A stretch of 23,266 bases of DNA from assembly GCF_000003605.2 (NCBI RefSeq), contig NW_003124897.1:507831-531096 (forward strand), in the 5' to 3' direction. This document shows, in pieces, positions 2,370-23,189 of this stretch. Numbering within the stretch: the first letter of the stretch is position 1; each line of letters starts with the position of its first letter. The notes beneath the pieces are model-generated. The model did no database searches. It was not told the DNA's origin and saw only the letters and a program-made list of their open reading frames with translations. The position numbers were made by a program, and so were the translations under genes. The stretch comes from Saccoglossus kowalevskii (taxonomy: Eukaryota; Hemichordata; Enteropneusta; Harrimaniidae).

Positions 2370-3190
2370 AAATTCCATGATATAATCATGTTCCATGACA
2401 AACTTTCCACATTGTCATAACTTTAGAACATACGTTCACGATATAATCATGTTCCACGATAAACGTTCAAAATTATCATAACTTTAGGACACTTGTTCGA
2501 GATATAATCATGTTCCACGATCAACGTTCAACATTGTCATAACTTGAGAACATACGTTCACGATATAACTATGTTCTACGATAAACGTTCAACATTGTCA
2601 TAACTTGAGAACATACGTTCACGATATAATCATGTTCCACGATCAACGTTCAACATTGTCATAATTTGAGAACATACGTTCACGATATAATTATGTTCTA
2701 CGATAAACGTTCAACATTGTCATAACTTGAGAACATACGTTTACGATATAATCATGTTCTACGATAAACGTTCAACATTGTCATAATACTTGAGAACATA
2801 CGTTCTCGATATAACTATGTTCTACGATAAACGTTCAACATTGTCATAACTTGAGAACATACGTTCACGATATAATCATGTTCCACGATCAACGTTCAAC
2901 ATTGTCATAACTTGAGAACATACGTTCACGATATAATTATGTTCTACGATAAACGTTCAACATTGTCATAACTTGAGAACATACGTTCACGATATAATCA
3001 TGTTCTACGATAAACGTTCAACATTGTCATAACTTGAGAACATACGTTCTCGACGATATAACTATGTTCTACGATAAACGTTCAATATTGTCATCACTTT
3101 AGAACATACTTTCACGATATAATCATGTTCTACGTTAAACGTTCAACGTTGTCATCACTTTAGAACACATGTTCGCGAAACAAATCACGT
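2370..3190. repeat. 61-bp satellite array with tetrameric higher-order pattern
   Basis: About 13 tandem units of 61 bp. The GAGAACATACGTTC segment starts at 2546 and 2607, which confirms the period. Each unit holds ACGATATAATCATGTTC, a CCACGATCAACG or CTACGATAAACG variant, and TTCAACATTGTCATAACTT. The order of variants (CCACGATCAACG, then three CTACGATAAACG units, the last with CGTTCTCGA) occurs twice, offset by about 246 bp (from about 2638 and 2884). This indicates a four-unit higher-order repeat. Edge units are more diverged. It is not a CRISPR array because there are no unique spacers. Confidence 0.95.
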
Positions 3191-12189: not shown

Positions 12190-12935
12190 TGATCTATACA
12201 TAAGGACTATAAGTCCTCTATATGCAAGGGCCATATTTGCACTATACACAAGTGTCATAGTTACACTACGTGAAAGCCATTATTGCATTATACATGGGGA
12301 CCATAGTTTTAATACAGGTGAAGACAATATTTTAATTATATATGTGCCGACCATAGTTTCATTATATGTGAGGGCCATAGTTTTAATACAAGTGAAGGCA
12401 ATAGTTTAATTATATGTTCCAACCATAGTTTTATTATATATGGGGGCCACAGTTTTAATACGAGTGAAGGCAATAGTTTAATTATATGTTCCAACCATAG
12501 TTTTATTATATATGGGGGCCACAGTTTTAATACGAGTGAAGGCAATAGTTTAATTATATGTTCCAACCATAGTTTCATTATATGTGAGGGCCATAGTTTT
12601 AATACGAGTGAAGGCAATAGTTTAATTATATGTTCCAACCATAGTTTTATTATATATGGGGGCCACAGTTTTAATACGAGTGAAGGCAATAGTTTAATTA
12701 TATGTTCCAAACATAGTTTCATTATATGTGAGGGCCATAGTTTTATTACAAGTGAAGGCAATAGTTTAATTAAATATGCCCGNNNNNNNNNNNNNNNNNN
12801 NNNNNNNNNNNNNNNNNNNNNNNNNNNNNNNNTACAAGTGAAGGCAATAGTTTAATTATATGTTCCAACCATAGTTTCACTATATATGTGGCGGCCATAG
12901 TTTCATTCTACGTGGGGTTGTAGTTTCACGATATA
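12190..12935. repeat. 24-bp satellite with 72-bp trimeric higher-order core
   Basis: Monomers of about 24 bp all carry a CATAG/AATAGTTT-type core, such as GCCATAGTTTTAATACAAG, GCAATAGTTTAATTATATG and ACCATAGTTTTATTATATAT. In the centre these three types form a homogeneous 72-bp unit, with CGAGTGAAGG recurring at 12461, 12533, 12605 and 12677. At the left edge (about 12190-12340) only divergent single monomers are seen. The array is interrupted by a 50-N gap, so its true length is unknown. Because 72 is divisible by three, one minus-strand frame (12336-12761) stays open, giving a 24-residue repeat that is probably meaningless. Confidence 0.95.
12783..12832. other. Assembly gap, 50 N
   Basis: Exactly 50 N bases inside the 72-bp satellite. 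A round number usually denotes a scaffold gap of unknown or estimated size. The flanking sequence on both sides is the same repeat. Confidence 0.99.
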
Positions 12936-20224: not shown

Positions 20225-20655
20225 AGCATAGTAACATCATATAGAAATGGTGTATAGTACCGGTAATGGTGTATATCATATAGTAATGGTGTACATCATA
20301 TAGTAATGGTGTATAGTAATAGTGTACAGTAATGGTGTATATCATATAGTAATGGTGTATAGTACCGGTAATGGTGTATATCATATAGAAATGGTGTATA
20401 TCATATAGCAATGGTGTACAGTAATGGTGTATATCATATAGTAATGGTGTATAGTAATGGTGTATATCATATAGTAATGGTGTATAGTAATGGTGTACAG
20501 TAATGGTGTATATCATATAGTAATGGTGTACAGTAATGGTGTATATCATATAGTAATGGTGTAAAGTAATGGTGTATATCATATAGTAATGGTGTATAGT
20601 AATGGTGTTCAGTAATGGTGTACAGTACCGGTAATGGTGTATATCATATAGTAAT
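20225..20655. repeat. TAATGGTGTA minisatellite
   Basis: About 23 copies of the ATGGTGT core are arranged as two interleaved modules, a 13-bp AGTAATGGTGTAC/T and a 20-bp AGTAATGGTGTATATCATAT, with occasional ACCGGT insertions. The module order is irregular. A minus-strand frame stays open for 119 codons (20223-20582) and would encode Tyr/His/Thr repeats; I treat this as a repeat artefact. If the long 3' UTR is real, the array would be transcribed as repeated CACCAUUAC. Confidence 0.93.
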
Positions 20656-21652
20656 CATAGTTCAAGTTGCTATTTTGTACTATTCAAATTTTATTTAGGG
20701 AAAGGGGGGTCAAGACTGAAACAAAAAAAGTTTTCTGAGCTTCCGTTTCGATGCAAGACCATCCCTAAAGCAGGCAGTGTGTTAAGCACCTTTACTCCTT
20801 CAGAAAATAGTTAATAAATGCACCTAGCGTTATATTGTATCAATGCTGCTATTACTACGGATTAGCAAAGAAATGGAGGTTGTTAGATTTTGGATAAATA
20901 TAGAAATACAGATAGGCAATGTTTTTTTGAGAATTAAAGTCTTGCAAATAATACAGCAGCTTTTAGAAAATATAATGTAGTGATATAACAGTTTTATTAA
21001 GAGCTGTGACATCTGGAAACATTCTCTGATTTAAGGAAATTACCACACTATCATGCAAGACTTAGTTTATGAACTTTTCTCACAAGAATTTAACCAAGTG
21101 TCCAGTATGCAAGCTTAGACTAACACCAAAAAAGGCTGGTAAAATTTTAATCTGACAGTAATCTGTCTGATGCCAATATGGGTACATATTAAGAGCGGAT
21201 ACTACAGCTCAGTGTGGAACACTGGTTATCTAGTCAGTCTAGTCAACAATTATATTATTAGTCCCATGAAAAGAAATCACAAGCATACCAAATTAAGATC
21301 TCGTCATAAGTACTTCGGTATTCAAATGTATCAAGTTTTTTAAGATGGCCAAAAGTAGGGAATCTTGGTGAACATTTACAAACTTACATGTTAAGAATAT
21401 TTACTGAATTATTGTATGATACAAGAAAGCATATTATAGCGTATTATGTTAGCATAGAAGACAAGTAAGTAAGCAAATTTTACAGGTGTAAAAAAAACAC
21501 AAAAAAGCCTTTACACCAAATCTTCTTTGTATATATGCCACACACATTTTGCCCACACAAAAATATAAGTAGCAGCAGCAATTCCAGGCAAGTGTTGAAA
21601 ATCTCCCGATAAAACAAGGCAATAATCGGCAATTGAATGCCAACCAACCCAG
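20656..21652 (-). other. Probable 3' UTR of PRPSAP with two poly(A) signals
   Basis: Starts right after the stop of the distal C-terminal exon. There is no competing ORF and the stretch is CpG-poor like the gene. Minus-strand AATAAA hexamers occur at 20993-20998 (660 nt past the stop) and 20690-20695 (960 nt past the stop). The cleavage site cannot be chosen from sequence alone. Confidence 0.5.
20993..20998 (-). terminator. Candidate poly(A) signal for PRPSAP
   Basis: The plus strand reads TTTATT, giving AATAAA on the coding strand. It is the first such hexamer after the distal stop codon. A second one is at 20690-20695. Confidence 0.4.
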
Positions 21653-21811
21653 TTAGTCTTCGGAGGCAATGTTTCTGAAGAGATAGGACATGGACTCCCC
21701 AAAGTGGATACGTCGGATAGCTTCTGCTAAAATTACACTGATGTCAATAGTCTGGATTTTATTACACTGTAGTTTCTGTAGTTCATGTGGAATAGTATTT
21801 GTCACTACAAC
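21653..21811 (-). CDS. PRPSAP: PRPSAP C-terminal exon, distal version
   Basis: 53 codons including TAA. The acceptor is ATGTTTTAG, preceded by a strong pyrimidine tract (CTTTCTTTTTTTTCTCGTG). It encodes [36 protein letters not shown] and [16 protein letters not shown]. It is closer to the usual family sequence (IPHE, DIS.IL.EAIRRIH) than the proximal copy. The two copies are 81% identical in protein (42 of 52) and about 77% in DNA (123 of 159), with no length difference. It shares phase 0 with the proximal copy, so the upstream exon can be spliced to either. Confidence 0.92.
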
Positions 21812-23189
21812 CTAAAACATTGGACACGAGAAAAAAAAGAAAGAGAGCTTCCATTTTAGAACACCTTTAGTCATCCGATGAGATATTTCTGAATAGATAT
21901 GACATGGACTCTCCCTGATGGATGCGTCGAATGGCTTCTGATATAATTGGGCTTACGTCGATTGTCTGGATTTTGCTACACTGCAGTTTCTGCAGGGCAT
22001 GCGGAATAGAGTTAGTCACAACAACCTAGGTCATCAGAAAAATAAACATATGATAGCATGGACAGTTTACAACCTAAGCCATGTTCAATGATATGCTACG
22101 CAGTGATGAGAATTCTTAATGTTATTTTCATGCATAATATTGTGGTTCATGTTAATTATGGGGATGTGGGTTTCTACCATGCAACCAGGGATATCTTGGC
22201 TAATATAATATGATCAAGATAGTAATTCAATGATTTCATGCTGAAGTCCAACTCTGAATTACCCAGATATATATTCAACATTCCTCAGAGTTCAATAAAT
22301 ATTTACTAAATATAAATTGTTTGCCACTGCTGTTAATGCTCAGGCACCATTGATAAATGAAATCTGCATGTATAAAAGCTGCATTTCATCTTCCATCATA
22401 ATGAAATCAAAATCAATAAATCTGATTATGTGAACTGAATCACTGTACAATGTTTGTGGAACTGCGCATTTCTGCTTGGCAAAGGGGTTGAACTTTGTAA
22501 TTAAGGGAGTGTGTACGTTTCAATGCAACATACCCAACTATAAAGTAGTTTAATTTATCAAATAGCCAAACCAGGGTCTCCAATAGCATGAGAGGACAGT
22601 AAGTAACAAGGTAATTTCAGATTATACTGAGATTACATTAGTATTTTGTGTAACCAGTACCCAGTGAGGAAAGGAAGAGAAATTAAAATCTTGTTATTTC
22701 TTGTTCCAAAATGGAGGTGTCTCTTGAAATATTATGGAGGGGTCCAGAGAAGCAGCATATGGGGTTTTACAGAATCCCTGTTTTGAAAATACAAGTTTAG
22801 ATGTATTCTATAAGATAGGCAGAACATTGAGTTACATGTAACATGCTATTTAGTTCGTTGTTTATAAAAACCTTGAAACAATAAAATTGAACTCTGTGAA
22901 ATTATACATCAGTAAAACCAATTCTTAAAAATAAAATTAAGATACCTAAAACGGGTGCCGTCAAAACAAATGTTTAGACCTGATTATTATAAAACTTTTT
23001 TTATAAACAATCTGAGGAATGTTTTAATAATATGTTACTAACCTCATCAATAACAGACTCTTCTAGTTTCTTTGGTGCATCTGAAGATAATAAACCGTGT
23101 GTTGCCATTGCATAGATTTTATACGCACCCCTTTCTTTGAGAATCTCAGCAGCATTTACAAACGATTCAACATCATCTATCATATCATC
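21653..23189 (-). CDS. PRPSAP: PRPS-associated protein (PRPSAP), 3' part, alternative last exons
   Basis: This is the 3' part of a gene for a phosphoribosyl-pyrophosphate synthetase-associated protein. These are catalytically inactive paralogues that sit in the cytosolic PRPP synthetase complex and restrain its activity. Visible coding blocks are an internal exon (23043-23189) and two versions of the terminal exon (21867-22025 and 21653-21811), all joined at phase 0. Identification rests on [10 protein letters not shown] at the position of the PRPP-binding loop (PRPS enzymes have DDMADTCGT there), then [37 protein letters not shown] and [11 protein letters not shown]. The sequence mixes features of vertebrate PRPSAP1 and PRPSAP2, as expected of a pre-duplication invertebrate gene. 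The start codon and the N-terminal two-thirds lie beyond 23266. Family assignment is very secure; the choice between paralogues is not. Confidence 0.93.
21867..22025 (-). CDS. PRPSAP: PRPSAP C-terminal exon, proximal version
   Basis: 53 codons including TAA, following the acceptor TGATGACCTAG. It encodes [36 protein letters not shown] and [16 protein letters not shown]. It joins the upstream exon in phase 0 and keeps the conserved EAIRRIH helix and the SYLF segment, which in PRPS enzymes lines the C-terminal allosteric/interface region. Relative to the distal version it has Ala for Glu after IPH, Pro in the helix start (DVSP), and Gln for Phe before GES. Only 53 bases separate its stop codon from the distal exon's acceptor AG, so its 3' UTR must run through the distal copy. 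It is intact, with no frameshift. Confidence 0.9.
22026..23042 (-). other. PRPSAP intron before the alternative last exons
   Basis: A 1017-nt intron when the proximal acceptor is used, or 1231 nt (to 21812) when the distal one is. The donor is GTTAGT; the proximal acceptor region is TTTATTTTTCTGATGACCTAG. The intron is AT-rich and CpG-poor. I looked for a third degenerate copy of the terminal exon and saw none. Confidence 0.85.
23043..23189 (-). CDS. PRPSAP: PRPSAP internal exon (49 codons)
   Basis: The exon is 147 nt with phase 0 at both ends. The acceptor reads GTCATTTGCAG|GATGAT and the donor GATGAG|GTTAGTAA. It begins exactly at the PRPP-loop equivalent [10 protein letters not shown], where acidic residues replace the TCGT of active synthetases, and continues through [20 protein letters not shown] and [18 protein letters not shown]. 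Loss of the TCGT loop argues for the non-catalytic associated protein rather than PRPS itself. The reading frame is open upstream of the acceptor for only two codons, so no start codon belongs here. Confidence 0.95.

Follow-up and report, generated by a model that had tools for sequence, protein, structure and literature searches.

The alternative exons 9 and 10 of PKM tune a protein of central metabolism and lie at a subunit interface. Exons 4a and 4b of OGDH are likewise described as alternative exons that tune the regulation of a central-metabolism protein (PMC7969005). The PRPSAP locus analyzed here resembles both genes in having candidate alternative exons in a metabolic protein. The alternatives in PKM and OGDH differ from the PRPSAP pair in being internal exons of catalytic subunits and in having an established function.

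Closer in form are exons 6a and 6e of COQ-2 in helminths, annelids, and molluscs, the a-form of which is more similar to the exon found in other animals and the junctions of which are shown by RNA-seq (PMC7434440). Like these, the PRPSAP exons are homologous candidate alternatives of equal length in a metabolic protein, and the COQ-2 exons switch that protein. In contrast to the COQ-2 pair, which comprises internal exons of an enzyme with junctions seen in RNA-seq, the PRPSAP pair comprises candidate alternative terminal exons of an associated protein, predicted from genomic sequence. In exon 8 of VEGF-A, proximal and distal 3' splice sites 66 bp apart yield VEGF-Axxx and VEGF-Axxxb, which are of the same length but have different C termini (PMC5852594). 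The PRPSAP arrangement is similar in that its last intron would end at either of two 3' splice sites and so give alternative C termini. The tails of VEGF-A are not described as duplicates in the account we draw on (PMC5852594), whereas the PRPSAP alternatives are homologous 52-codon exons that match at 42 of 52 residues.

Choice among terminal regions is also known from Drosophila, in which PGRP-LC has mutually exclusive 3' variable regions and pip has terminal exons, and from human capping protein beta, whose 3'-terminal exons are described as homologous, as are those of pip (PMC9013439, PMC3228551). These cases are described with separate 3' regions, several poly(A) sites, or competing RNA structures. 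The PRPSAP alternatives are likewise terminal, with one to be chosen at a time, but could share a single 3' UTR farther downstream, and the linker between them folds worse than its shuffles. Papers on PRPS evolution describe conserved splice junctions (PMC12238573, PMC13252144) and N-terminal start-site isoforms (PMC12238573). Within the titles and opening parts of abstracts that were searched, we found no description of a C-terminal exon pair in PRPSAP; annotation databases might list predicted variants. Alternative exons that tune metabolic proteins and tandem terminal exons are both already known, and PRPSAP is a gene in which such a pair would be informative. We favor, at a probability of roughly 0.75, the reading that the last coding exon of this PRPSAP gene of Saccoglossus kowalevskii was duplicated in tandem long ago, that both copies were kept, and that one donor and two competing 3' splice sites give either tail.

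Anatomy and identity of the locus

The gene lies on the minus strand, with its 3' end at the right end of the window (the whole stretch of DNA that was analyzed, 23,266 nt in length). Its shared penultimate coding exon (23043-23189, minus strand; 147 nt, 49 codons), recognized from the sequence, tblastn, and a PF14572 match, begins at the acceptor TTTGCAG, encodes a peptide ending in ...EESVIDE, and closes at the donor GAG/GTTAGT, with phase 0 at both ends. The following intron (22026-23042, minus strand) extends 1,017 nt from the donor GTTAGT to the acceptor of terminal coding exon A, ...TTTTTCTGATGACCTAG, and 1,231 nt when measured to the acceptor of terminal coding exon B, ...CCAATGTTTTAG. 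Exon A (21867-22025, minus strand) and exon B (21653-21811, minus strand) each encode 52 amino acids followed by TAA. Two intact 159-nt terminal exons in tandem, each with its own acceptor and stop and in the same phase, had been proposed in the preliminary description and can be read directly from the DNA, with phase 0 in both; the span given there, 21653-22025, covers both exons plus the 55-nt linker that separates them. This linker (21812-21866, minus strand), which runs from the stop of A to the acceptor of B, contains a long polypyrimidine tract and ends in the acceptor TTTTAG. Judging from the geometry, it would be 3' UTR when exon A is spliced in and intron when exon B is.

A candidate poly(A) signal that both mRNAs could share (AATAAA, 20993-20998, minus strand) lies about 650 nt 3' of the B stop. 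A further AATAAA (21758-21763, minus strand) occurs within exon B, where it forms codons 17 and 18 (Asn-Lys), and exon A has AGCAAA instead. A short 3' end of the A mRNA at this internal hexamer is conceivable, and B mRNAs could be cut short there if it were used. The window also holds long tandem arrays at 1-963, 2379-3178, 12286-12772, and 20263-20655, with units of 31, 61, 72, and 33 to 112 nt, the last allowing several overlapping readings. For most of its length, an open frame at 12322-12855 on the plus strand reads through the 72-nt array, and a run of N comes after it. Ten of the 25 listed open frames were compared with Pfam and had no match at 0.01, and Rfam gave 0 matches at gathering scores.

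The assignment of the gene to PRPSAP is borne out by its closest solved structures, which are human PRPSAP2 and PRPSAP1, and by an aspartate at the position of T225 in PRPS1. The predicted splice products score 162 bits (A) and 165 bits (B) against human PRPSAP2, with a range of 153 to 165 bits over PRPSAP2 and PRPSAP1 together, and at best 82 bits (A) and 89 bits (B) against human PRPS1 and PRPS2. Both also exceed the PF14572 cutoff of 27, at 172 bits for product A and 178 bits for product B, a family that matches 14 of 14 prokaryote control genomes as well and hence does not separate PRPSAP from PRPS. Replacement of the catalytic T225 of PRPS1 by Asp is described for PRPSAP2 (T225/D262; PMC12238573), and residue 6 of our query, which lies in the shared exon and aligns to position 225 of the PRPS2 chain, is D. 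This test of catalytic residues covers the T225 position, the other residues named in that source (PMC12238573) falling in upstream exons. The upstream exons, in which the inserted non-homologous regions of a PRPSAP would be expected, were not found: the three stretches adjoining the window are almost wholly N, and the next 40 kb (N runs included) gave no match.

Proposed splice-site choice at the last intron

Under the favored reading, the donor at the exon end 23043 would be joined to either of two competing 3' splice sites, one just before 22025 and the other just before 21811. Use of the proximal site would produce tail A with its own TAA and leave exon B as 3' UTR, and use of the distal site would remove A within the intron and produce tail B. 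A separate 3' end would not usually fit into the 55 nt between the A stop and the B acceptor, so B should be part of the 3' UTR of the A mRNA. Under either outcome the protein would be full length, its tail would have 52 residues, and no exon junction would be required after the stop, so that splice choice would alter the tail and need not alter the amount of protein. We infer that both junctions are used.

The anatomy matches the type of choice seen at exon 8 of VEGF-A, with one donor, two acceptors, and a reading frame from each acceptor to its own stop. The two exons share the equal length, frame, and homology of mutually exclusive exons (159 nt each, phase 0, 42 of 52 residues), but they do not form an internal cluster, as both copies end in TAA and no later coding exon is expected. 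In the strict sense, mutually exclusive exons are neighbors flanked by further exons, and terminal clusters are kept apart from them (PMC3228551). The label of mutually exclusive terminal exons in the preliminary description does not quite fit: the tails are homologous, equal in length, and would be made one at a time, but the choice would be between two acceptors of a single intron.

Both acceptors are plausible. When the 58 HAG sites of the region are ordered by their number of pyrimidines and, where that is equal, by their number of Ts, the B acceptor is 2nd and the A acceptor 6th by this crude measure; B has 14 pyrimidines in 19 positions, as one of four such sites, and A has 13 of 19, also as one of four. 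The pyrimidine tract of the B acceptor is longer than that of A.

Control of the choice by RNA structure was considered and rejected. The linker folds less stably than its own shuffles (190 of 200 shuffles were as good or better), and 88 of 200 shuffles of the other acceptor region fold as well or better, so that neither acceptor region surpasses its shuffles. The intron contains a 13-nt perfect inverted repeat (22277-22289 and 23011-23023), one arm of which is about 20 nt from the donor and which would loop out most of the intron; inverted repeats of equal or greater length arose in 15 of 500 shuffles. Splicing from A to B by way of a weak donor (AG/GTGTTC) after the A stop was also considered; it would involve a 53-nt intron, would leave the protein unchanged, and seems unlikely.

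Divergence and probable use of the two copies

Exons A and B differ at 36 of 159 nucleotides, with 7, 4, and 25 of the differences at first, second, and third codon positions. The codon count made by hand in the preliminary description is exact: with the stop counted, the 53 codons comprise 24 that are the same in both copies, 19 that differ synonymously, and 10 that differ nonsynonymously, with 0 indels. The blastn alignment of A with B (E = 6e-35; 126 of 162 nt identical) extends from the acceptor TAG through the TAA and finds no homology in the flanks, and neither tail has a further match at an E of <0.2 when searched by tblastn against the window. The confinement of the likeness to the constrained part is as would be expected for an old duplication.

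The ratio of dN to dS between the copies, a calculation that had been suggested as a check, is about 0.08 by NG86 (dN 0.12, dS 1.48), and the corresponding dN and dS are 0.12 and 1.23 by ML and 0.13 and 0.92 by YN00; LWL85 gives a dN of 0.11 and a dS of 12.6, a sign of saturation. Bootstrapping of the NG86 ratio yields a median of 0.08 and a 2.5 to 97.5% range of 0.02 to 0.21 over the 869 of 1,000 replicates that were usable, dS being undefined in the other 131. When all 36 differences were placed on one copy in neutral simulations, 10 or fewer replacements occurred in 0 of 5,000 runs, whichever copy served as the start. Placing 18 differences on one copy gave 371 to 376 of 5,000 runs that lacked a stop and had at most 10 replacements, and placing 12 gave 2,774 to 2,957 such runs. 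Taken together, dN/dS and the simulations uphold the proposal that both copies have been constrained at the protein level, over the greater part of their history; given the runs with 18 and 12 differences, the pair by itself would also be compatible with one copy having recently fallen out of use. From dS and generic rates, the duplication is probably old, on the order of tens to hundreds of millions of years, and related species should therefore share the exon pair.

With the tails numbered as in PRPS (exon position plus 268), the human residue is kept by B alone at 274, 278, 292, and 296 and by A at 319. At position 297, A has the residue of the PRPSAPs and B that of PRPS2, and at 285, 294, 305, and 317 neither tail has the human residue. 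Identities to human PRPSAP2 are 40/52 for A and 42/52 for B, those to PRPSAP1 are 35/47 and 38/47, and those to PRPS2 are 28/48 and 33/48. Exon B, with Phe at position 305, looks like the ancestral-like copy, and exon A, with Gln at that position, the more derived one.

These comparisons bear on the possibility that only one copy is in use, with the ancestral-like B making the protein and A having lost its use recently or being spliced at noise level, which we regard as unlikely. It would fit with the greater distance of A from the human proteins at the four positions where B alone keeps their residue, with the higher scores of product B against PF14572 and human PRPSAP1, PRPSAP2, PRPS1, and PRPS2, and with the longer pyrimidine tract at the B acceptor, but a few bacterial chains (1dkr, 7pn0, 5t3o, and 5mp7) score A higher. 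Moreover, A has an acceptor and a stop of its own and an open frame of 52 codons, and over a dS of about 0.9 to 1.5, a copy that was idle for most of the time should show many more replacements or a stop. Among the eight residues of the filament and ADP contacts discussed below, A departs from human PRPSAP2 at 305 only.

It is quite improbable that both tails are made but that the protein difference is near neutral and selection acts on the 3' UTR. The geometry does force a UTR difference between the mRNAs, with that of A being 214 nt longer and including all of exon B, and several of the replacements are mild (among them T/S, V/I, I/L, D/E, and S/A). Against this stand the replacements that are not mild, A/E at 278, P/V at 294, and Q/F at 305 (with three bases changed), and the low dN/dS, which indicates that the amino acid sequences of both copies were constrained over most of their history.

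Searches of the 572-Mb assembly found no second locus among the best-scoring candidates, which are all that these searches score. The DNA of exon A returned one place, exon A itself, in a search that missed the 78% identical exon B and thus excludes only near-identical extra copies; the protein of exon B returned two places, B and A; and PF14572 returned three places out of four candidates, all at the PRPSAP locus. As this locus is the sole match among those candidates, a haplotype artefact, which the preliminary description had named as a possible source of the second copy, is unlikely. Upstream of the gene, the bases immediately outside the window are N, but an allele or a misjoined fragment is an extremely remote explanation: the copies have 36 differences in 159 bases and are separated by 55 nt of uninterrupted sequence, they have no further match among the best-scoring candidates, and a dS near 1 would be extraordinary for alleles. 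Queries of the PRPS1 type, including a full-length human PRPS1, also led to the PRPSAP locus alone; that they missed a catalytic PRPS gene more likely reflects N runs or the few scored candidates than absence of the gene. Three scans of viral contigs found no relative, and a scan of genome contigs found 16 loci, all prokaryotic and read as PRPS.

Contacts in the two candidate tails

The preliminary description held that the C-terminal segment corresponds to interface and allosteric residues and that exchanging it could tune how the protein restrains PRPP synthesis. Such residues are indeed present. The ADP contacts described for the tail segment are S308, S310, and F313 (PMC10227994), and the filament contacts through which hexamers stack are E298, R301, R302, N305, and E307, as described in papers on PRPS2 and the Escherichia coli enzyme (PMC10227994, PMC9232217); the filament interface is described as retained in PRPSAPs (PMC12238573). 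Positions 308, 310, and 313 are identical in tails A and B, however, and four of the five filament contacts are the same in both, so that a single contact, 305, differs. At this position human PRPSAP1, PRPSAP2, and PRPS2 have Asn, A has Gln, and B has Phe, with all three bases of the codon differing between the copies. A 2025 paper also presents PRPSAPs as molecular scaffolds with a part in shaping how the complex assembles (PMC12238573), and given this role, the earlier wording of restraint may be too narrow.

Because the tail holds the hexamer-stacking residues and the copies differ at 305, we infer, more weakly, that tail choice may tune the way in which PRPS filaments or mixed complexes are joined or capped by a PRPSAP subunit. 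Filament contacts are not enriched among the differences (1 of 5, versus 9 of 47 other tail residues). Read from the alignment by eye, 14 divergent prokaryotic PRPS sequences (16 loci were fetched, two of which lack the column) have H (four sequences), K (three), Y (three), N (two), or E (two) at position 305, which indicates that the site tolerates change and counts against the filament reading. A more specific and rather doubtful proposal is that splicing runs a filament switch, in which tail A (Gln305) would stack between PRPS hexamers and tail B (Phe305) would cap or break the stack, or the reverse. Phe305 cannot form the side-chain hydrogen bonds that Asn305 makes to R301 and E307. Tissue or stage would then set filament length and the ADP sensitivity of PRPP synthesis through acceptor choice, with the amount of protein unchanged.

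PRPP is a building block of nucleotides, its synthesis is a rate-limiting entry to nucleotide synthesis, and PRPSAPs are relatives of PRPS without the catalytic residues. It is an open question how PRPSAPs determine the size of the PRPS complex and its regulation, and the structural basis of the partnerships between PRPS and PRPSAP has been called unclear (PMC12238573). Two natural tails that are 10 residues apart, including one filament contact, would be a ready-made experiment on the role of PRPSAP, and the PRPSAP pair would join COQ-2, OGDH, and PKM as a case of metabolism tuned by exon choice.
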